NCBI GenBank assembly: GCA_002780895.1
Contig: PEUB01000092.1
Location: 1-49,293 of the forward strand
Direction: 5' to 3'
Length of the DNA: 49,293 bases
Source of the DNA: Nitrospirae bacterium CG02_land_8_20_14_3_00_41_53
GTDB lineage: Bacteria > Nitrospirota > Thermodesulfovibrionia > Thermodesulfovibrionales > SM23-35
The notes below the pieces were generated by a model, which saw nothing but the letters and a program-made list of their open reading frames with translations, was not told where the DNA came from and ran no database searches. Both the position numbers and the translations under genes were made by a program. This document shows, one piece after another, positions 2,962 to 12,847 of the stretch (positions are counted from its first letter, which is position 1; the number at the start of each line of letters is the position of its first letter).

Positions 2962-5900
2962 ATGAGGTTCATCGGTCTTGATGCAGGCTCTGGTAGTGTG
3001 AAGCTTGTTATCCTTGATGAAAAAGGTAACAGGCTTTACAGTCATTACGAAAGGCACAAGGGGCTCCCGCTCAATGTTGCCCTCGAACTCCTTAAGACAG
3101 TAACGAGTAACAGGCCACTGGTCACTGGTCACTGGTCACTATCAATCACTGGCTCTGCCGGCAAGTTAATCGCTTCCATCCTTGGTATAGTATCTGTCAA
3201 CGAGATTGTCGCCCAGGCATATTCCACACACAAACTCTTTCCCTATATAAGGACGATAATCGAGATGGGAGGGGAGGATTCGAAACTTATACTCTTAGGT
3301 GAAAACGGCCGCTCTGTGAGAGACTTCTCCATGAATTCCGTCTGCGCCGCTGGCACAGGCTCCTTTCTCGACCAGCAGGCAGAAAGACTAAGGCTTACAA
3401 TAGAAGAATTCAGCGAGCTTGCGCTGAAATCAAAAAAGCCACCGAGGATTGCAGGAAGATGTAGTGTATTCGCAAAATCTGACATGATACACCTCCAGCA
3501 GATAGCAACACCCGTTGAAGATATTGTAGCCGGTCTCTGTTTTGCCCTTGCGAGGAACTTCAAAGGCTCTATATTAAAAGGCAGAAAGATGATACCTCCG
3601 GTATCTTTTCAGGGAGGAGTTGCAGCAAATAAAGGGATGGTCAGGGCCTTTAAGGAAATCTTCGAACTCGACGAGCTATTTATCCCTGAGGATTACGCAC
3701 TTACGGGAGCAATCGGCGCTGCTTTAAAGAACATGCATGAGGGCAGGATACAAAATTTTGACCTATCAAAGCTTGAGGAATTTCTAAAATTACCCAGGCC
3801 CATCGAGGCAGGGTACCCGCCCTTGATTGACTCTGATCAAGAATCAAGCATCACCCCCTCCCTCACCCTCCCCCCTCGAGGGGGAGGGCAGGGGTGGGGG
3901 GGCAGACCAAGCTCAGAACGAATTAAGGCATATCTCGGCATTGATATTGGTTCTATCAGCACTAATCTTGCTGTAATAGATGAGTATGGAAAACTCCTCT
4001 CAAAAAGATACCTTATGACAGCAGGCAGGCCTATAGAGGCAGTTAGACAGGGGCTTTCAGAGGTAGGTGAGGAGATTGGAGATAAGGTCCAGATAATGGG
4101 TGTTGGCACAACAGGCTCAGGTAGATACATGATTGCTGACTATGTTGGCGCTGATATGGTAAAGAATGAGATTACAGCCCATGCGGTAGCTGCGGTATTT
4201 ATTGATAAAACTATTGATACGGTCTTTGAGATTGGTGGACAGGACTCAAAATTCATATCACTTAAAGATGGCGTTGTCGTTGACTTCGAGATGAACAAGG
4301 CATGCGCAGCAGGAACAGGTTCTTTTCTCGAGGAACAGGCAGAAAAATTGAATATCTCGATTAAGGGAGAATTTGAAGAGTCTGCGCTTTCCTCTAAAAA
4401 TCCTTGCAGACTTGGCGAAAGGTGTACTGTATTTATGGGAAACTCCCTGTTGGCAAATCTCCAGAAAGGTGTTAACAGGAATGACCTTCTTGCAGGTCTC
4501 TCATATTCTATTGTCCAGAATTATATAAACAGGGTTGTTGCAGGAAAGGCGATAGGTGAAAATATAACTTTTTTAGGTGGTGTTGCCTTTAACAAAGCTG
4601 TTGTTGCTGCATTCGAGAATTACCTCGACAAAAAGATACCTGTTCCATCTCACCACGAGGTCGCTGGCGCAATAGGTATGGCATTAATTGCAATGAGAAA
4701 TGTAAAAGATAAGACTAAATTCAAGGGGTTTGAACTTTCAAAAAGGCCTTACGAGATATCATCATTTGAATGTAAAGGCTGCCCTAATATTTGTGAAATA
4801 AACAGGGTGAAGATTGCTGGCGAAACAGGCTTTCTCTTTTATGGAGGAAGATGCGAAAAATATGATATAAGAAAGAAAAAGACATCCAGCCTCCCCGACC
4901 TCTTTTCATTCAGAGATGAAATGCTGTGGAAAGAACATCTGCAAAGACACTCAATAGTCAATAGTCAACAGTCAGAAGTCAGCCCACCCACCCACCCCTC
5001 CCCCTCGAGGGGGGAGGGTAAGGGAGGGGGTGATAACTCCGAACTCAAAACTCAAAACTCAAAACCGAAGATCGGCATTCCCTATATCTTCTTCTTTCAT
5101 GATTATCTTCCTTTCTGGACAACACTTTTATGGGAGCTCGGATTTGATGTAGAGGTTTCTCCAAAGACGAATAGACAGATCATTAACCTCGGACTTGAAC
5201 GTCTTCTTTCAGAGGCGTGTTTCCCTGTGAAGGTTGCACATGGGCATATCAGCTATTTGCTTGATAAAAGTGTAGATACAATATTTTTACCGAGCTTTAT
5301 TAATCTCAACACACCAGAAGACCGCTTTGATAGGGGGTTTGCCTGCCCTCATATACAGACAATTCCTTACGTCTCAAAGGTTGCATTTGATGGAATAAAC
5401 ATAATTTCTCCGAAAATAAATTTAAGACTTGGCAAGAGATTTCTGTTAAACGAACTCAAGAATGCCTTTAAACCATTCGGCATAAGTAAATCTTCAATAT
5501 CTATAGCGATTGATAATGCACTTAAAGCGCAGGATGAGTTCAATAATGCTATAAAGGCAAAAGGTGATGAATTTTTATCATCAATTAAGGATATTACTAT
5601 CGCGATCATAGGAAGGTCGTATAATGCCCTTGACAATGGCGCAAATCTTGAAATACCTAAAAAACTTGCGGATCTCGGCATTTCTTCAATCCCCATGGAT
5701 TTCCTGCCACTCGAAAGATACACAATCGACAGTGAGTGGCCTAATATGTATTGGAGATCTGGTCAGATGATACTTAAGGCTGCAAGATTTATAAAAGATA
5801 CCCAAAATCTTTATGCTATTTATATAGGGAATTTTTTATGCGGACCTGACTCGTTTATTCTGAAATATTTCAAAAAGGAAATGGGCAGAAAACCCTTCCT

Positions 5901-7245
5901 GCATCTGGAGATTGATGAACACAGTGCAGATGCAGGCATAATAACAAGGTGTGAAGCATTCATTGACAGCATCCAGAACAAGGTTCAAGGTTCAAGGTTC
6001 AAGGTTCAAGGTAAAGATAAAAGTTTAAAGGATATCACATCTAACGCCTTACGTTTCACGTCTCACGTCTCACGTACCATTTACATACCCCGTATGTCAG
6101 ACCATGCATTTGCCCTTGCATCTGCATTTCAGCACTGTGGCATTAATGCCGAGGTTCTCCCTGAGTCTGATAAAGAGACCGCAGACATGGGAAGGAAATA
6201 TGTCTCGGACAAGGGATGTTATCCATGTACAGTCACCACAGGTGATATGATAAAAAAGGTCATGCAACCTGATTTTATCCCTGGGAAAAGTGCCTTTTTC
6301 ATGCCCTCTGGCACAGGCCCGTGTAGATTTGGTCAGTATAATGTATTCCACAGGATGGTTCTTGATAGCATTGGTTATGCGGATGTGCCTATATTTTCAC
6401 CAAACCAGGATACAACTTTTTACAGCGACCTTGGAATTGTTGGCAAGGATTTCACAATGCACGCATGGAGAGGTATTATTGCTTACGAACTTCTTAACAA
6501 ATGCCTCCATGAGGTTAGACCATACGAAAAAAATAAAGGGTTTGCAGATGAGCTATATAAAAATTATCTACAAAAGTTATACCTTTCTTTAAAAAGTAAT
6601 AATGGTAATTTAGAGGAAATCCTGAAGGATATAAGAGAAGACTTTGAGAACCTTCCCAAGCACAAAGACAGAAAACCTCTTATTGGAATAATTGGTGAGA
6701 TATTCGTTAGGTCCCATAAATTCTCTAACGAGAACCTTATAAGAAAGGTTGAGTCATTGGGTGGTGAGGTATGGCTAGCGCCAGTAGAGGAATGGATTTA
6801 CTATATAAACCTCATGGGCTTAAAGAAGGCATTGTTAAAAAAGGAATGGTCTGATATTATTAATTTCCTCTTGAAGAAATTCTTCCAGAAGAGGATAGAG
6901 CATAAACTTGCAAGACATTTTAACGGTTTTCTGAAAACATTGAAAGAGCCTGAAACGAAAGAGATACTTAATAAGGCATCACCTTATCTGCATAGCTCAT
7001 TTGAAGGTGAGGCTATTTTAAGTATCGGGAAATGTATTGATCTTTTAGAAAGAGGGGCCTCGGGCGTTATAAATGCTATGCCCTTTGGTTGCATGCCGGG
7101 TACTATTGTTACTGCAATCTTGAGAGGGGTGTACAGGGACTATGGCGTTCCATACATCAGTATACCTTATGATGGGACAGAGTCACCTTCAACAGACATA
7201 CAGATCGAGGCATTTATGGATCAGGCCAGAGAATATAGCAGATAG
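2962..7245 (+). CDS. Giant acyl-CoA dehydratase activase / HgdB-like fusion protein
   Basis: This 1427-residue protein has two tandem BadF/BadG/BcrA/BcrD-type ASKHA ATPase modules followed by a DUF2229/HgdB-like region. Each ATPase module carries the CAAGTGSF motif (near residues 125 and 446) and a second cysteine motif (GRCSVFAKSD; ERCTVFMGNS near 486). In 2-hydroxyglutaryl-CoA dehydratase and benzoyl-CoA reductase activases these cysteines hold the bridging [4Fe-4S] cluster used for ATP-driven electron injection. The C-terminal half (from about residue 700) contains further conserved cysteines, such as KGCYPCTVT and FGCMPGT, as in dehydratase subunits. Such activase-dehydratase fusions are widespread in anaerobes and their substrate is generally unknown. 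Four separate blocks of repeat DNA are translated within the gene, at about residues 50-60, 297-314, 664-702 and 1006-1038, mostly between domains. Confidence 0.88.
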   Translation: MRFIGLDAGSGSVKLVILDEKGNRLYSHYERHKGLPLNVALELLKTVTSNRPLVTGHWSLSITGSAGKLIASILGIVSVNEIVAQAYSTHKLFPYIRTIIEMGGEDSKLILLGENGRSVRDFSMNSVCAAGTGSFLDQQAERLRLTIEEFSELALKSKKPPRIAGRCSVFAKSDMIHLQQIATPVEDIVAGLCFALARNFKGSILKGRKMIPPVSFQGGVAANKGMVRAFKEIFELDELFIPEDYALTGAIGAALKNMHEGRIQNFDLSKLEEFLKLPRPIEAGYPPLIDSDQESSITPSLTLPPRGGGQGWGGRPSSERIKAYLGIDIGSISTNLAVIDEYGKLLSKRYLMTAGRPIEAVRQGLSEVGEEIGDKVQIMGVGTTGSGRYMIADYVGADMVKNEITAHAVAAVFIDKTIDTVFEIGGQDSKFISLKDGVVVDFEMNKACAAGTGSFLEEQAEKLNISIKGEFEESALSSKNPCRLGERCTVFMGNSLLANLQKGVNRNDLLAGLSYSIVQNYINRVVAGKAIGENITFLGGVAFNKAVVAAFENYLDKKIPVPSHHEVAGAIGMALIAMRNVKDKTKFKGFELSKRPYEISSFECKGCPNICEINRVKIAGETGFLFYGGRCEKYDIRKKKTSSLPDLFSFRDEMLWKEHLQRHSIVNSQQSEVSPPTHPSPSRGEGKGGGDNSELKTQNSKPKIGIPYIFFFHDYLPFWTTLLWELGFDVEVSPKTNRQIINLGLERLLSEACFPVKVAHGHISYLLDKSVDTIFLPSFINLNTPEDRFDRGFACPHIQTIPYVSKVAFDGINIISPKINLRLGKRFLLNELKNAFKPFGISKSSISIAIDNALKAQDEFNNAIKAKGDEFLSSIKDITIAIIGRSYNALDNGANLEIPKKLADLGISSIPMDFLPLERYTIDSEWPNMYWRSGQMILKAARFIKDTQNLYAIYIGNFLCGPDSFILKYFKKEMGRKPFLHLEIDEHSADAGIITRCEAFIDSIQNKVQGSRFKVQGKDKSLKDITSNALRFTSHVSRTIYIPRMSDHAFALASAFQHCGINAEVLPESDKETADMGRKYVSDKGCYPCTVTTGDMIKKVMQPDFIPGKSAFFMPSGTGPCRFGQYNVFHRMVLDSIGYADVPIFSPNQDTTFYSDLGIVGKDFTMHAWRGIIAYELLNKCLHEVRPYEKNKGFADELYKNYLQKLYLSLKSNNGNLEEILKDIREDFENLPKHKDRKPLIGIIGEIFVRSHKFSNENLIRKVESLGGEVWLAPVEEWIYYINLMGLKKALLKKEWSDIINFLLKKFFQKRIEHKLARHFNGFLKTLKEPETKEILNKASPYLHSSFEGEAILSIGKCIDLLERGASGVINAMPFGCMPGTIVTAILRGVYRDYGVPYISIPYDGTESPSTDIQIEAFMDQAREYSR
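3113..3140. repeat. heptamer array (4 x GGYCACT) in the activase gene
   Basis: Units GGCCACT and three GGTCACT copies are in tandem and encode part of the segment PLVTGHWSLSITG in the first ATPase module. Confidence 0.9.
3851..3905. repeat. GC palindrome, CTCGAG-centred, in the activase gene
   Basis: TCACCCC...CCCTCGAGGG...GGGGTGGGG is a long imperfect inverted repeat. It encodes a Pro/Gly/Arg-rich linker between ATPase modules 1 and 2 (residues about 297-314). Confidence 0.9.
4952..5062. repeat. composite element: heptamers - GC palindrome - heptamers, in the activase gene
   Basis: Four CAATAGT-like heptamers (4952-4979) abut a CTCGAG-centred palindrome (about 4983-5033). The palindrome is followed directly by AACTCCG and three AACTCAA heptamers (5035-5062). 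The block is translated as a Ser/Pro/Gly/Lys/Asn-rich linker between the ATPase modules and the DUF2229/HgdB-like region. This is the clearest case of both repeat kinds forming one unit. Confidence 0.92.
5979..6013. repeat. heptamer array (5 x CAAGGTT) in the activase gene
   Basis: Four perfect CAAGGTT units and one CAAGGTA are in tandem. They encode NKVQGSRFKVQG, in frame, near residue 1010. Confidence 0.92.
6044..6071. repeat. heptamer array (4 x ACGTYTC-like) in the activase gene
   Basis: Units ACGCCTT ACGTTTC ACGTCTC ACGTCTC lie 30 bp after the previous array. Together the two arrays flank a short unique segment and insert about 35 residues before the conserved motif YIPRMSDHA. Confidence 0.88.
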
Positions 7246-7434: not shown

Positions 7435-8484
7435 ATGCTCTTAGAATCATACTTGTCCAAATATAAAATGTTTACGCCATTTATGACGACAGGTATTGGA
7501 AGTCTACCATATACGGAACCTGAAAAAGCATGCAAGCTCGTGCTTGATACATTTGACATACCCTTCTGGCCTCAGCTTCCTAAGTTATCATTTCGTGAAT
7601 CAATGATACCCCAGTTCTCTGAAGGTATGCCGTTTATAAAGATTGATGAGCGAAAAGAAACCATATGGATAGAAAGAAACAGAAGTGATGCCCTTACAAG
7701 GTTCTACGAAACCTATTCAGAAGACTGGAAGGTTGCTATTTCTGAAAGCTATGCAAAAGGGCTTTATACATTTATAGGACTGTTAAAGAATAAGAGGTTA
7801 AAAACCCTTAAAGGACAGATTACTGGTCCGCTGACATTTAGCCTCGGACTAAAAGATTCTGTGGGAAGACCAGTCTATTTTGACGAAGAGCTCCGGGAGA
7901 TTTCTCTTATGTTACTTAAGGCAAAGATTAGATGGCAGATAGAAATATTAAAGCCCTATGGTGAAGAAATAATTATATTTATAGATGAGCCTATTCTTTC
8001 TGCACTTGGAAGTACAAGTTATATTGGTGTAGACCCTGAAGAGACCCTGAGATTGTTAAGAGAAATAACAGATGCCATTAAGAATGCAGGGGGTATCCCC
8101 GGGATTCATTGCTGTGGTAAAGCTGACTGGCCATTGGTAATAAACAGTGATATCAGGATTATCAGTTTCGATGCATATGAGTATATTGAGACAATCTCGA
8201 TGTATCCAGCAGAATTCACAGAATTTTTTAAGGGTGGTGGATATCTTGCATGGGGAATCATACCGACAACTGATTCAATAAGAGAAGAAAGCCTTGACTC
8301 GATTAAGAGGCGTTTTGATAACAGCGTGGATAGATTATCGAAGTCAATACCAGCAACCTTGTTATTATCACAGATAATGCTGACACCCTCATGTGGCACA
8401 GGATCAAAGAGTATAGAAGAGACGTTGAAGGTTTTTAAGACTTTGGTTGAATTAAAGGGGTTAATAAAGGGTAGTTCACTATGA
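7435..8484 (+). CDS. MetE C-terminal-like (core methionine synthase / UROD-fold) protein
   Basis: The 349-residue product has the fold signature of cobalamin-independent methionine synthase without the N-terminal half. It begins with the segment TGIGSLPY and keeps GQITGPLTF. Candidate zinc ligands are visible as His and Cys in GIHCCGKAD and as Cys in LTPSCGTGS. Stand-alone core MetE proteins transfer methyl groups from donors such as methylcobamide proteins, or have unassigned roles. The start is uncertain: ATG at 7435 has no clear ribosome site, and ATG at 7468 would begin closer to the conserved TGIGSLP. The stop overlaps the tmk ATG by four bases, so the two are translationally coupled. 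Confidence 0.75.
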   Translation: MLLESYLSKYKMFTPFMTTGIGSLPYTEPEKACKLVLDTFDIPFWPQLPKLSFRESMIPQFSEGMPFIKIDERKETIWIERNRSDALTRFYETYSEDWKVAISESYAKGLYTFIGLLKNKRLKTLKGQITGPLTFSLGLKDSVGRPVYFDEELREISLMLLKAKIRWQIEILKPYGEEIIIFIDEPILSALGSTSYIGVDPEETLRLLREITDAIKNAGGIPGIHCCGKADWPLVINSDIRIISFDAYEYIETISMYPAEFTEFFKGGGYLAWGIIPTTDSIREESLDSIKRRFDNSVDRLSKSIPATLLLSQIMLTPSCGTGSKSIEETLKVFKTLVELKGLIKGSSL

Positions 8485-9101
8485 AAGGAATATTTATTTC
8501 ATTTGAGGGAATTGAAGGTGCGGGTAAGACAATTCAGTCAAAACTCCTTTGTGAATATCTCCTAAAGAAAGGATATAAAGTTATACTTACAGAAGAACCT
8601 GGGGGCACTCGAATTGGGCTCAAGATTAGAGAGTTACTCCTTTCTGTAGAAAATAAGGGGATGACGCCTGTTACAGAATTGTTGCTCTATAATGCTTCGC
8701 GTGCACAACATATAAAGGAGGTTATTCTTCCTGCACTAAAAAGAGGTTTTGTTGTCATAACAGACAGGTTTGTTGATTCGACAGTAGCCTACCAGGGTTA
8801 TGGAAGGGGGATAGATTTAAGTCTCATATATTCTATCGAGAAAGTTGTAACCGGAGGTGTAAAACCTGATATTACAATACTCTTTGACATTGATGCAGAG
8901 ATTGGTTTAAAGAGAAATAGAGGTATTAAAAAGTCAGACAGGTTAGAACTCGAGGATGTAGGGTTTCATAAACGGGTAAGAAGTGGTTATCTCGAGATTG
9001 TATCAAAAGAACCTGAGAGAATAAAATTAATAGATGCCTCAGAGGGCATAGAGGAAATACATAGCAAAATAGTTAGCATAGTTATGGATTTTATTAACTA
9101 A
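8481..9101 (+). CDS. tmk: Thymidylate kinase
   Basis: The protein phosphorylates dTMP to dTDP in the cytoplasm. At 206 residues it has normal family length. The P-loop FEGIEGAGKTIQ lies at residues 7-18, and the DRFVDSTVAYQGYGRG segment holds the Asp-Arg catalytic and dTMP-contact region. The start ATG overlaps the previous stop (ATGA). The tmk-holB pairing is common in bacteria. Its TAA stop (9099-9101) overlaps the outer end of the inverted repeat that fills the gap to holB. Confidence 0.95.
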   Translation: MKGIFISFEGIEGAGKTIQSKLLCEYLLKKGYKVILTEEPGGTRIGLKIRELLLSVENKGMTPVTELLLYNASRAQHIKEVILPALKRGFVVITDRFVDSTVAYQGYGRGIDLSLIYSIEKVVTGGVKPDITILFDIDAEIGLKRNRGIKKSDRLELEDVGFHKRVRSGYLEIVSKEPERIKLIDASEGIEEIHSKIVSIVMDFIN

Positions 9102-9250
9102 GATGCAGACATTGTTCAAAAATTTATTTAACTCGATAAATTTATTGAAAATATCTCTATTTGTTATATTCGATAAAATATTCCGAAAACCATTAGTTAT
9201 AGGTACACTAAGGTATCGAAAAATAAATTTTTCCACAACATCTGCATCTT
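9100..9250. mobile_element. MITE-like AT-rich element with about 38-bp terminal inverted repeats
   Basis: The left arm (9100-9138), starting AAGATGCAGA, pairs with the right arm (9214-9250), ending TCTGCATCTT. The arms share the exact 12-mer pair AAAAATTTATTT / AAATAAATTTTT and the TATCGA end. About 75 bp of AT-rich sequence lies between. No coding sequence is visible, and no clear target duplication was found. It could be a non-autonomous transposon remnant or a large RNA hairpin within the tmk-holB transcript. Confidence 0.55.
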
Positions 9251-9277
9251 CCATTTGTATTATTTGGGTTAATTAAT

Positions 9278-10330
9278 ATGGCGTTCAGAGACATTATAGG
9301 ACAGGACATGGCAATAAACATACTTCTTAGAACCATTCAGAGAGGTAGGTTACCATCGTCGTATCTATTTATAGGAGAATCAGGCATTGGCAAGAAATTT
9401 ACTGCCATCAATCTTGCAAAGGCGGTGAATTGCCTTAATCCCCCCATCCCCCCTTTAGAAAAGGGGGGTGAGGGGGGATTTGATCAGGGGAGGTATGGGG
9501 GGATGAATGAGTATTCACTATTCACTGACTGTTGCGATGAATGTCCCTCGTGTAAGAAGATTAATGCTGGAGTTCATCCTGACTTTTTACTCATTTCACC
9601 TGAAGGTGGTCAGATTAGGATTGAGGAGATACGGGCGGTCAACGACATACTTTCTTTTAAACCGTTTGAGGGCAGGAATAAGGTTGTTATTGCAGATGAA
9701 GCAGATACTATGAATCCATTTGCAGCAAATGCATTTCTTAAAACCCTTGAAGAACCTCCAAAAGACAGCCTGATAATCCTTATATCATCAAACCCCGACC
9801 GCCTGCCAGATACAATAAGGTCTCGATGTTCAAAGGTAAACTTTACGCCCCTTTCTCACGAGGCATGCAGAAAAGTCATAAAGATCAGCAGTCAAAAATA
9901 CAGCAAAAAGACATCTGAAGTACTCTCGACTCTCGTCAGGCTTTCAATGGGAAGGCCGGGTCTTGCAATCGCAGGAAACCTTATAGAAGATAGGGCATGG
10001 TTTATAAAACTCCTGAAAGGGATGCTAAATGTAGAAAAAGATGGTTGGACATCTAAAGAAGAAATGGAAAGATGGTTCGACATTTTACTTATCCTTTTCA
10101 GAGATATGGCTATAATAAAGATAACTCAGGATGAAACAAACCTTATTAATATTGATTTTAAAGACTATTTAAATAAGTTAAGCAGTTCGATAGATTTAAA
10201 GGTTATAATAGAAAATTATCAAAAAATAAATATATTAATGAGATATTTCAAGTTCAATCTAAACAGATCCCTCACATGGAACTATACAGCTTCATTGCTG
10301 AGAAAGACAATGGATGTTAAATATGCCTGA
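9278..10330 (+). CDS. holB: DNA polymerase III delta' subunit
   Basis: This is the clamp-loader delta' subunit, 350 residues. The AAA+ region begins FRDIIGQDMAINIL, with a degenerate Walker A (GESGIGKK), followed by the zinc module and VVIADEADTM, then the SRC motif (TIRSRCSKV). The zinc module normally has a first Cys and then CxxCxxC close by. Here the first Cys (AVNCLN, about residue 50) is separated from CCDECPSC by an inserted GC palindrome plus heptamers of about 30 residues. The reading frame and the later domains are intact, so the protein is probably functional. No strong ribosome site precedes the ATG. Confidence 0.92.
   Translation: MAFRDIIGQDMAINILLRTIQRGRLPSSYLFIGESGIGKKFTAINLAKAVNCLNPPIPPLEKGGEGGFDQGRYGGMNEYSLFTDCCDECPSCKKINAGVHPDFLLISPEGGQIRIEEIRAVNDILSFKPFEGRNKVVIADEADTMNPFAANAFLKTLEEPPKDSLIILISSNPDRLPDTIRSRCSKVNFTPLSHEACRKVIKISSQKYSKKTSEVLSTLVRLSMGRPGLAIAGNLIEDRAWFIKLLKGMLNVEKDGWTSKEEMERWFDILLILFRDMAIIKITQDETNLINIDFKDYLNKLSSSIDLKVIIENYQKINILMRYFKFNLNRSLTWNYTASLLRKTMDVKYA
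9437..9480. repeat. GC palindrome, AATCCCCC type, in holB
   Basis: AATCCCCCC...CCCTTT pairs with AAAAGGGGGG...GGGGGGATT, a near-perfect inverted repeat. It encodes a Pro/Gly/Glu-rich insertion and is the sister of the copy at 1337-1381. Confidence 0.92.
9505..9525. repeat. heptamer array (TATTCAC x 2 plus a degenerate unit) in holB
   Basis: GAATGAG TATTCAC TATTCAC lies 24 bp after the palindrome, repeating the palindrome-heptamer association seen in the activase and cheW genes. Confidence 0.6.
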
Positions 10331-11213
10331 AGTAATCGGAGTACGTTTCAAACCCTGTGGAAAGATATACGACTTTGAGGTAAACGGTATAGATGTAAAC
10401 AAAGGTGACCTTGTAGTCGTAGAGTCAGAGCTCGGCCTCAACATAGGCAATGTCGTCATTGATCGTCATACGGTGGAAGAGTATGAAAGAAAGCTGAAAA
10501 AGATTATTCGCAAGGCAACTGAAGAAGACCTTCATCAGAGACAAGAAAACAGGAACCTCGAGATTGAAGCTATGAATAACTGCCTTGAGAGGATAATGGC
10601 ACGTGGGCTTCCAATGAAGCTTATCTGGACGGAGGTAACCCTTGACAGAAGACGTATTATTTTCTATTTCACCGCAGAAAAGAGGATTGACTTCAGGGAG
10701 CTCGTCAAGGACCTTGCTGCAAAGTTCAAGACAAGGATAGAGATGAGACAGATAGGTGTTAGGGATGAGGCAAAAATGATAGGTAGTTTCGGGATATGTG
10801 GCAGGGAACTATGTTGTACAAGATTCCTGACATCGTTTGAACCTATTTCTATCAAGATGGCAAAGAGGCAGGAACTAGTCCTGAACACGGGTAAGTTATC
10901 CGGAGTCTGCGGAAGGCTCATGTGTTGCCTGGGATTTGAGTATTCTGAGACATTCCCAGAGGACGTTGCCCTGTCAGAGGAAAATTCCATGTCTATTTCC
11001 GAAGATGCAGAGCCACTTGAAATGATTGTCACCTCAAGTGACATTCTTGAAGAAGTAGAAGAACCTGTAGCCCAACCCGGTATTGTCGGGATTGACTCGC
11101 ACCGAGAGTCGCAACGCCCTGCGCCTCAACCTGAACAGCAAGAACATAAAGGAAAATACAAGAAGTTTAAAAGGCACAGGAAAAAACGCAACAGAAAACT
11201 TACTAACCAGTGA
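10323..11213 (+). CDS. ricT: PSP1-domain protein, RicT (YaaT)-like
   Basis: The product has the PSP1 family order: an N-terminal GVRFKPCGKIYDFEV strand region, a helical middle, and the cysteine signatures GRELCCTRFL and GVCGRLMCCLGFEY. In Bacillus the homologue is part of the RicAFT complex, which carries [4Fe-4S] clusters and supports mRNA maturation. Placement after holB is typical. I prefer ATG at 10323 (MPEVIGV) over ATG at 10314 because family members begin there; neither has a strong ribosome site. The C-terminal tail is low-complexity and includes the repeat segment GIDSHRES encoded by 11085-11108. The metG start overlaps its stop. Confidence 0.88.
   Translation: MPEVIGVRFKPCGKIYDFEVNGIDVNKGDLVVVESELGLNIGNVVIDRHTVEEYERKLKKIIRKATEEDLHQRQENRNLEIEAMNNCLERIMARGLPMKLIWTEVTLDRRRIIFYFTAEKRIDFRELVKDLAAKFKTRIEMRQIGVRDEAKMIGSFGICGRELCCTRFLTSFEPISIKMAKRQELVLNTGKLSGVCGRLMCCLGFEYSETFPEDVALSEENSMSISEDAEPLEMIVTSSDILEEVEEPVAQPGIVGIDSHRESQRPAPQPEQQEHKGKYKKFKRHRKKRNRKLTNQ
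11085..11108. repeat. repeat GTCGGGATTGACTCGCA...CGAG near the ricT end
   Basis: This segment matches the one at 14088-14110 near the NIF3 stop, with two or three differences. Both are translated at a protein C-terminus. Confidence 0.6.
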
Positions 11214-12847
11214 GAAATAAGTTTTTCATTACCACACCTATATATTATGTAAATGACATCCCGCATATAGGCCATGCATATACAACTGTGGCAGCCGATA
11301 TCCTTGCGAGATATAACAGGGTAAAAGGCAAAAAGGTATTTTTTTTAACAGGCGCTGATGAGCACGGCCAGAAGGTTGAAAAGGCAGCGCAGGAGAAAAG
11401 CCGGTCACCAAAAGAGCATGCTGACCTTATGGTGGAGAATTACAAAACACTCTGGTCAAAACTCGATATTAAAAACGATGTCTTCATACGCACTACAGAT
11501 TCAGAACATGTAAAGACCGTACAATCGCTACTGCAAAAGTTATGGGAAAAGGGTGAAATAGAAAAAAGGTTATATTCGGGGTGGTACTGCATACCGGATG
11601 AACGATTCTGGACTGATAAGGAAGTCGTAACTGGTAATTGTCCGGATTGTAAAAGGCCTGTAGAACGTATTACCGAGGAAAACTATTTTTTCTTGATGTC
11701 AAAGTACCAGGAAAGGCTTTTAAAATACATTGATGAAAATCCGTATTATATACTTCCAGAAACACGGAAAAATGAGGTTCTCGGGTTTTTAAAAAATAAC
11801 CCACTCGGTGACCTCTGCATATCAAGACCAAAGCATAGACTTTCCTGGGGTATATCACTGCCTTTCGATGACAGCTTTGTAACCTATGTATGGTTTGATG
11901 CACTTATAAATTACTACTCAGCGACAAAGTATCTTGCCCCAGAACACAGAGTACAGGACACAGCCCCCCCCACCCAGCCCTCCCCCTCGAGGGGGGAGGG
12001 GAAGGGTGGGGGTGAAAATCTCACATCTGAAGACTGGTGGCCTCCCGAACATCACCTGATAGGTAAGGACATCCTAATAATACATGCTATTTACTGGTCA
12101 ACTATGCTGATGGCACTTGAATTATCTCTGCCAAAAAACATCTTTGCACATGGGTGGTGGACTGTTGAAGGGAAGAAGATGTCCAAGTCTGTTGGCAATG
12201 TTGTCGACCCTAATAAAGTTGTGGAAAAATACGGTGTTGATGCCTTCAGATACTTTCTTTTCAGGGAAGTACCATTTGGCCTTGATGGAGACTTCTCTGA
12301 TGAGGCAATGATAAAACGTATCAACACTGACCTTGCGAATGACCTTGGAAATCTTCTATACAGGACACTGGTAATGATCGAAAAGTATTTTGAAGGAAAA
12401 ATCCCTCAGCCGCCTCCTTATGACATTAATGGATCAGTTGATGTGCTTAGAGAAATTCACCTTAAAAATCGCATAGAGAGTATCAAGGAAAAATTTGATG
12501 TTTTAATGGAAAAATTATCGTTTGGTCACGCCCTCGATAAAATCTGGGAGGCAATTAATGATGCAAATAAATTAATCGAAGATGAAGCTCCATGGAACCT
12601 GAGGAAGGCAAATAATATTGATAAACTCTCAAGTGTGCTTTATACACTTGCTGAGGCGATTAGAATCATAGCGGTCTATCTCTTCCCTTTTATGCCAGCA
12701 GCAGCAGAAAAGATGTGGGAACAGCTTAATGTTGAAGAAAAACTATCAAAAATAAATCTTGATAATGGCACAAGATGGGGAAGACTGAAACCCGGGACAA
12801 CGATCAGAAAAGGTACGGCACTGTTTCCAAGAATAGAAAAAGGATAA
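11210..12847 (+). CDS. metG: Methionyl-tRNA synthetase
   Basis: A class I synthetase of 545 residues that charges tRNA-Met. The HIGH motif lies in IPHIGHAYTT near residues 18-27 and KMSKS in GKKMSKSVGN near residue 325. The zinc knuckle is incomplete: the first pair reads CIPDE, with Asp in place of the second Cys, while the second pair, CPDC, is present. There is no C-terminal tRNA-binding domain, as in many short bacterial forms. The start is a GTG at 11210 overlapping the ricT TGA. An in-frame heptamer plus palindrome insertion lies between YLAPEHR and DWWPPEHHLIGKD, extending a loop in the catalytic domain before KMSKS. Confidence 0.95.
   Translation: MRNKFFITTPIYYVNDIPHIGHAYTTVAADILARYNRVKGKKVFFLTGADEHGQKVEKAAQEKSRSPKEHADLMVENYKTLWSKLDIKNDVFIRTTDSEHVKTVQSLLQKLWEKGEIEKRLYSGWYCIPDERFWTDKEVVTGNCPDCKRPVERITEENYFFLMSKYQERLLKYIDENPYYILPETRKNEVLGFLKNNPLGDLCISRPKHRLSWGISLPFDDSFVTYVWFDALINYYSATKYLAPEHRVQDTAPPTQPSPSRGEGKGGGENLTSEDWWPPEHHLIGKDILIIHAIYWSTMLMALELSLPKNIFAHGWWTVEGKKMSKSVGNVVDPNKVVEKYGVDAFRYFLFREVPFGLDGDFSDEAMIKRINTDLANDLGNLLYRTLVMIEKYFEGKIPQPPPYDINGSVDVLREIHLKNRIESIKEKFDVLMEKLSFGHALDKIWEAINDANKLIEDEAPWNLRKANNIDKLSSVLYTLAEAIRIIAVYLFPFMPAAAEKMWEQLNVEEKLSKINLDNGTRWGRLKPGTTIRKGTALFPRIEKG
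11940..12015. repeat. composite element: heptamers plus CTCGAG palindrome in metG
   Basis: CAGAACA CAGAGTA CAGGACA (11940-11960) run straight into a CACCC...CCTCGAGG...GGGTGGGGG inverted repeat (11964-12015). The frame is kept and encodes a Pro/Ser/Gly-rich loop. Confidence 0.9.

Follow-up and report, generated by a model that had tools for sequence, protein, structure and literature searches.

The window, a stretch of DNA of 49,293 nucleotides from a Nitrospirota bacterium, raises the question of what separates two successive genes of one operon. In the window, tmk (thymidylate kinase; ORF at 8481–9101, plus strand), which has orthologues in 26 of 31 genomes, ends with the stop codon TAA at 9099–9101, and the next operon gene, holB (DNA polymerase III delta prime subunit; ORF at 9278–10330, plus strand), which lies downstream of tmk in relatives too, starts at 9278. 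An earlier note read the intervening sequence as a MITE, and this reading is supported by further copies, empty sites and a target duplication. We consider it probable that the MITE entered a TTAA between tmk and holB by cut-and-paste, with an IS1380-family transposase as the most likely mover acting in trans.

Boundaries and structure of the element

Based on the alignment of copies with their flanks, the body of this multi-copy MITE spans 171 bp of non-coding sequence at 9098–9268 on the plus strand, with a G+C content of 26% compared with 41% for the window. Comparison with empty sites places the two 4-bp TTAA copies of the target duplication at 9094–9097 on the left and at 9269–9272 on the right. 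The limits proposed earlier, 9100–9250, were slightly off, since the body reaches 9268 and a TTAA lies on each side. The element is short, lacks a transposase gene and has terminal inverted repeats, as a MITE should. Its interior is AT-rich and non-coding, as had been noted; a single frame of notable size lies on the minus strand (KKFIFRYLSVPLTDGF...), and its reading as a small conserved protein was rejected because stops and frameshifts break it in most copies.

Inverted-repeat detection and alignment define a left subterminal arm at 9100–9129 (plus strand) and a right one at 9221–9250 (minus strand). These arms are 30 nt long without gaps, 87% complementary and spaced by 91 nt; thus, the inverted ends reported earlier are real, whereas the 38 bp attributed to them reduce to an ungapped arm of 30 bp. 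Approximately 20 bp outside the inner arm, the end motif recurs in the alignment as an outer copy that forms the right terminus at 9257–9268 (minus strand), which reads GTATTATTTGGG (consensus GCATTATTTGGG). In the aligned copies, the consensus runs from CCC(A/G)AATAATGCAGACATTGCTCAAAAATTTATTTAACTCGAT through an interior of variable sequence to AAGGTATCGAAAAATAAATTTTTTCACAACATCTGCATTATTCAATTGCATTATTTGGG, and TTAA lies at either side; the true termini are CCC(A/G)AATAATGCA... and ...GCATTATTTGGG. The left tip of the window copy is eroded, showing CTAAGATGCAGA where the consensus has CCCAAATAATGCAGA. In addition, AAGATGCAGA, previously taken as the start of the element, is an altered form of the subterminal TAATGCAGA that is private to the window copy, and the true terminus lies elsewhere.

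The stretch has a predicted RNA fold of −38.5 kcal/mol, compared with a mean of −16.7 for shuffled sequences (z = −7.1), and 0 of 200 shuffles were as stable. Such a stable fold between two genes of one operon would suit a conserved structured intergenic RNA or a cis-regulatory element of the tmk-holB operon rather than a transposon. However, no Rfam covariance model matched the element at gathering scores (only RNase P and one tRNA were matched in the window), and the copies at unrelated loci, the target duplications and the empty sites in relatives refute this explanation, to which we assign a negligible chance.

Copies and target duplication

Similarity searches of the own genome (2.0 Mb in 159 contigs), with positions 9095–9256 as the query, revealed five full copies at 84–91% identity, the window copy included, plus fragments. 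The other full copies lie on contigs C69 (two), C78 and C13, and a partial copy lies on C122; judged from the surrounding ORFs, all copies in this genome are intergenic. The element was matched in 22 of the 61 genomes searched, its own genome counted, and several of these contain at least a dozen copies. Several copies among the 61 genomes lie at contig ends, as expected because repeats break assemblies. The end motif occurs 21 times forward and 24 times reverse in genome G005 and, with at most two mismatches, 80 times in each direction in genome G009 (2.9 Mb), compared with 0 and 0 for the backwards control in both. The search for other copies with matching ends that the earlier note had proposed was therefore positive in the own genome and in relatives.

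Identical 4-bp flanks were observed in 29 of the 39 distinct complete elements of the wider family, and in 24 they are TTAA/TTAA, a share that is inflated by the picking of some loci with a TTAA-containing pattern. In the subset found by plain similarity (loci up to L087), 7 of 12 complete elements have identical flanks. The five elements with identical non-TTAA flanks carry TCAA, TACA, TGTT, TTTA and ATAA. TTAA is itself a palindrome and might in theory belong to the inverted repeat, but the matching non-TTAA flanks point to an exact target duplication.

The tmk-holB junction with and without the element

Removal of the element and one TTAA in silico restores the junction GAT TTT ATT AAT TAA t ATGGCG. 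In the close relative G009, whose tmk is 81% identical to that of the window, the uninterrupted site reads GAT TAC ATA AAT TAG a ATGGCG, which corresponds to the reconstructed window site in codons and spacing. Empty sites are present in other relatives as well: the spacing between tmk and holB is 1 bp in G009, G013 and G028 and 4 bp in G004, and the two genes overlap in several relatives. Thus, the description of the element as exactly filling the gap is nearly right, since without it and one TTAA the genes lie 1 bp apart. A single copy in the genome together with conservation between tmk and holB in relatives had been named as contrary evidence, and neither was found.

The overlap of the tmk stop with the left end was also confirmed, as the TAA at 9099–9101 lies within the first bases of the element. 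In the reconstruction, the C-terminus of Tmk, SKIVSIVMDFIN, is left unchanged by the insertion. A consensus-ended copy at this junction would extend Tmk by 11 residues (PNNADIVQKFI); because the left end is eroded in the window copy, the stop directly follows the native C-terminus. By analogy with precedents (PMC10969869), the insertion might alter holB expression, through loss of tight coupling or through the hairpin that the tmk-holB mRNA would contain.

Other sequence occupies tmk-holB gaps of 91–217 bp in G011, G005, G031 and G001. In G029, the gap (L155) is filled by a different repeat with ends GGCATGGCAGG..., which has 40 matches in that genome. A common origin of the junction repeats of G029 and G001 and the window MITE was considered and rejected, since 8 of 200 shuffles reached the alignment score for G029 and 14 of 200 reached that for G001. 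The tmk-holB junction seems to be repeatedly tolerant of insertions.

Subfamilies with common ends and the candidate transposase

Several MITE subfamilies with unrelated interiors have the common end TTAA-CCC(A/G)AA(T/A)AATGCA. A 207-bp subfamily is present in G009 and in the own genome (C51, C120 and C153), where at least three copies are flanked by TTAA or ATAA duplications; the own-genome copies (CCCGAAAACTGCATTTATCTGATGACCAAGGCAGGCATATA...) were seen at L206 619–833, L207 1109–1323 and L208 825–1039. Furthermore, G009 carries a type of approximately 126–225 bp, the own genome a 51-bp type (C95), and G029 types of 56–84 bp. These subfamilies were most likely mobilised in trans by a DDE transposase of the IS1380 family, which would cut the non-autonomous element out and paste it into TTAA, as between tmk and holB, with duplication of the target.

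Four copies of TTAACCCAAATAATGCAGTTAGATATTCATAAAATC in G001, which start TTAACCCAAATAATGCAGTTAGATATT, run to contig ends, and in two cases the copy extends as far as an ORF, MHSKCTTKIEINKVGIEFTEKKITAYGGFSLLAAFFEKIHLREAIG.... The 70-aa N-terminus of this ORF weakly matches NF033539 (transpos_IS1380) with an E value of 0.0011, and it aligns by BLASTP (E 4e-6) with the full IS1380 transposase of G016, which itself matches NF033539 at 1.8e-72. Relatives of it in G009 and G003 have the ends TTAACCCGAAAACTGCAGTTAAC and TTAACCCGAAAAATGCAGTTACC. Partial IS1380-like copies with the 14-bp MITE end, or a near match to it, and a TTAA target are present in G001, G003 and G009, all of them truncated or cut by contig ends. 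Complete IS1380 elements were found in G002 and G016, with ends CCCAGATAATTCAT and CCCAAATTACGCAAGGG, and a CTAG borders the G002 element at either end. Other PF13701 matches in relatives were rejected as partners because their ends differ.

The search for an autonomous transposase with matching ends thus yielded a candidate, which is incomplete and lies in other genomes. No complete autonomous element with these ends was found by protein searches of 61 and then 231 genomes or by scans of genome contigs and viral contigs. PF13701 had no match in the own genome or in the MITE-richest genomes (G005, G009, G012 and G018). Because the MITE-rich genomes lack PF13701 matches, the IS1380 link rests on the ends, mostly those in other genomes; as judged from sequence, the link of this MITE group to IS1380 is likely but provisional. 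The own genome would no longer encode the transposase, and because none of the IS1380 type was found there, its copies are probably immobile relics. A transposase in the host would be a requirement for mobility today, which a relic MITE does not share. A search by sequence for solved structures of an IS1380 transposase returned none.

Alternatively, a transposase from a different family could have moved the MITE, again leaving 4-bp TTAA duplications, and the resemblance of the MITE ends to those of IS1380 would then reflect convergence on a short motif. The window MITE and the IS have only approximately 14 bp and the target in common, without the longer subterminal sequence of the IS, and this shortness, together with the missing full autonomous copy and the MITE-rich genomes without an IS1380 transposase, would fit such a mover. 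In contrast, CCC(A/G)AATAATGCAG and the TTAA target are common to several IS1380-like copies, and a G009 MITE subfamily starting TTAACCCGAAAAATGCAGTTAGATTTT resembles the G001 IS end over approximately 25 bp. Moreover, full IS1380 elements from the same bacterial family have CCCA-type ends, one with an intact 4-bp duplication. We therefore regard a mover from another family as unlikely and favour the IS1380-family transposase acting in trans.

A further repeat with the common end, TTAACCCAAAAAATGCAGTTTAAGTAGACATACTTGTAGAGC..., reaches contig ends in G001 (L224 from 1478, L189 and L199) and also occurs at L177 in G003. No convincing open frame was seen within 250 bp of it. It may represent the opposite end of an autonomous element.

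Comparison with known systems

Similar to the IS1380 family (NF033539, PF13701), the window MITE group has ends starting with CCC, a short target duplication and multiple copies, and IS1380-like elements of a related MAG have its 14-bp end and TTAA target. In contrast, the window element, at 171 bp, encodes nothing and has only the tip of the end in common with the family. IS1247, a published IS1380 member, is listed with a 5-bp repeat (PMC3281130), compared with 4 bp in the window MITE group.

In eukaryotes, piggyBac duplicates TTAA on insertion, TCAA and TAAA being among the rare exceptions, and has CCC-type termini (PMC10813416); IS1380 is taken as its distant prokaryotic relative (PMC10140906; PMC10813416). 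The window element resembles piggyBac and its MITEs in eukaryotes in its TTAA target duplication with exceptions and in its CCC-type ends. However, it is prokaryotic, no piggyBac protein accompanies it, and the similarity of the ends is one of pattern only.

Correia/NEMIS, ERIC, RUP and BOX elements are small, palindromic, intergenic, multi-copy and mobilised in trans, and they can form long hairpins in mRNA. The window MITE is likewise small, palindromic, intergenic, multi-copy and able to form a long hairpin, whereas its ends and target site are different. Correia/NEMIS and ERIC elements have been shown to act as hairpins in RNA processing or regulation, and RNase III cleavage at MITE arms has been reviewed (PMC10969869); this processing serves only as a precedent for the hairpin predicted here from sequence.

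A MITE is an ordinary kind of element; the novelty lies in this family, in a bacterial TTAA/CCC signature and in IS1380 as the probable partner. This large bacterial MITE family is apparently undescribed: the IS1380 passages of several works treating both IS1380 and MITEs describe no such group, and the literature searched contained no paper joining MITE, Nitrospira and IS1380. The result is a high-copy bacterial MITE group with a TTAA target and CCC ends, features best known from piggyBac, and with a provisional tie to IS1380. It might offer a natural system for studying target choice and excision by bacterial relatives of piggyBac.

Co-variation of the arms

Across 16 copies, the 30 stem pairs are kept in 98.5% of cells and seven pairs have changed on both sides, a degree of pairing reached by 0 of 500 shuffles and by no slid register. 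Among 73 copies, 53 Watson-Crick double changes were observed, and all double changes number 58 compared with 15 expected by independence; these counts are inflated by the relatedness of the copies, much of the change being common to whole subfamilies. Private compensatory double changes occur in single copies (L003, L004, L250 and others). The window copy has AAGATG/CATCTT in its arms compared with TAATG/CATTA in the consensus.

This conservation of pairing might indicate that the element, mobile in origin, is now retained at the tmk-holB junction as a hairpin with a role in regulation or RNA processing, through RNase III cleavage or the tuning of holB. The very stable fold, the paired arms and the precedents of RNase III cleavage at MITE arms would agree with such a role. 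However, only 25 of the 131 single-sided changes in the 73 copies yield G-U, below the approximately 33 expected (half of the 67 observed transitions yielding G-U), and because G-U changes are not over-represented, selection on RNA pairing is not visible. Furthermore, most junctions of relatives lack the element, and no promoter-like sites were found in its region. Collectively, a retained hairpin function appears quite improbable, and the results hint that the co-variation of the arms arises from a DNA process, either variant masters or arm-to-arm copying, and not from selection on RNA. Template switching between the arms possibly underlies the private double changes.

More speculatively, the elements might form a Nitrospirota MITE superfamily with piggyBac-like TTAA|CCC ends, driven by a transposase of the IS1380 clade with piggyBac-like chemistry (precise TTAA excision), the arms being kept complementary after insertion by template switching at quasi-palindromes. 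We hold this combined picture only tentatively and think it rather doubtful as a whole. If arm-to-arm copying does occur, the elements would be natural recorders of hairpin-templated mutation.

Other small repeats

Some MITE copies are nested mosaics that contain other small repeats, as observed at L096 (near 5800–5500), L099 (3919–3660) and L106 (3111–3265). Separately, G+C-rich palindromic repeats lie in frame within genes, including one at 9437–9480 of the window within holB (HolB ...PPIPPLEKGGEGGF...) and others (...PPTHPSPSRGEGKGGG...) in the ORFs at 2962–7245 and 11210–12847 and at L002 702–1472. These palindromes appear as if they were a second class of small repeat, able to enter coding sequence and be translated.
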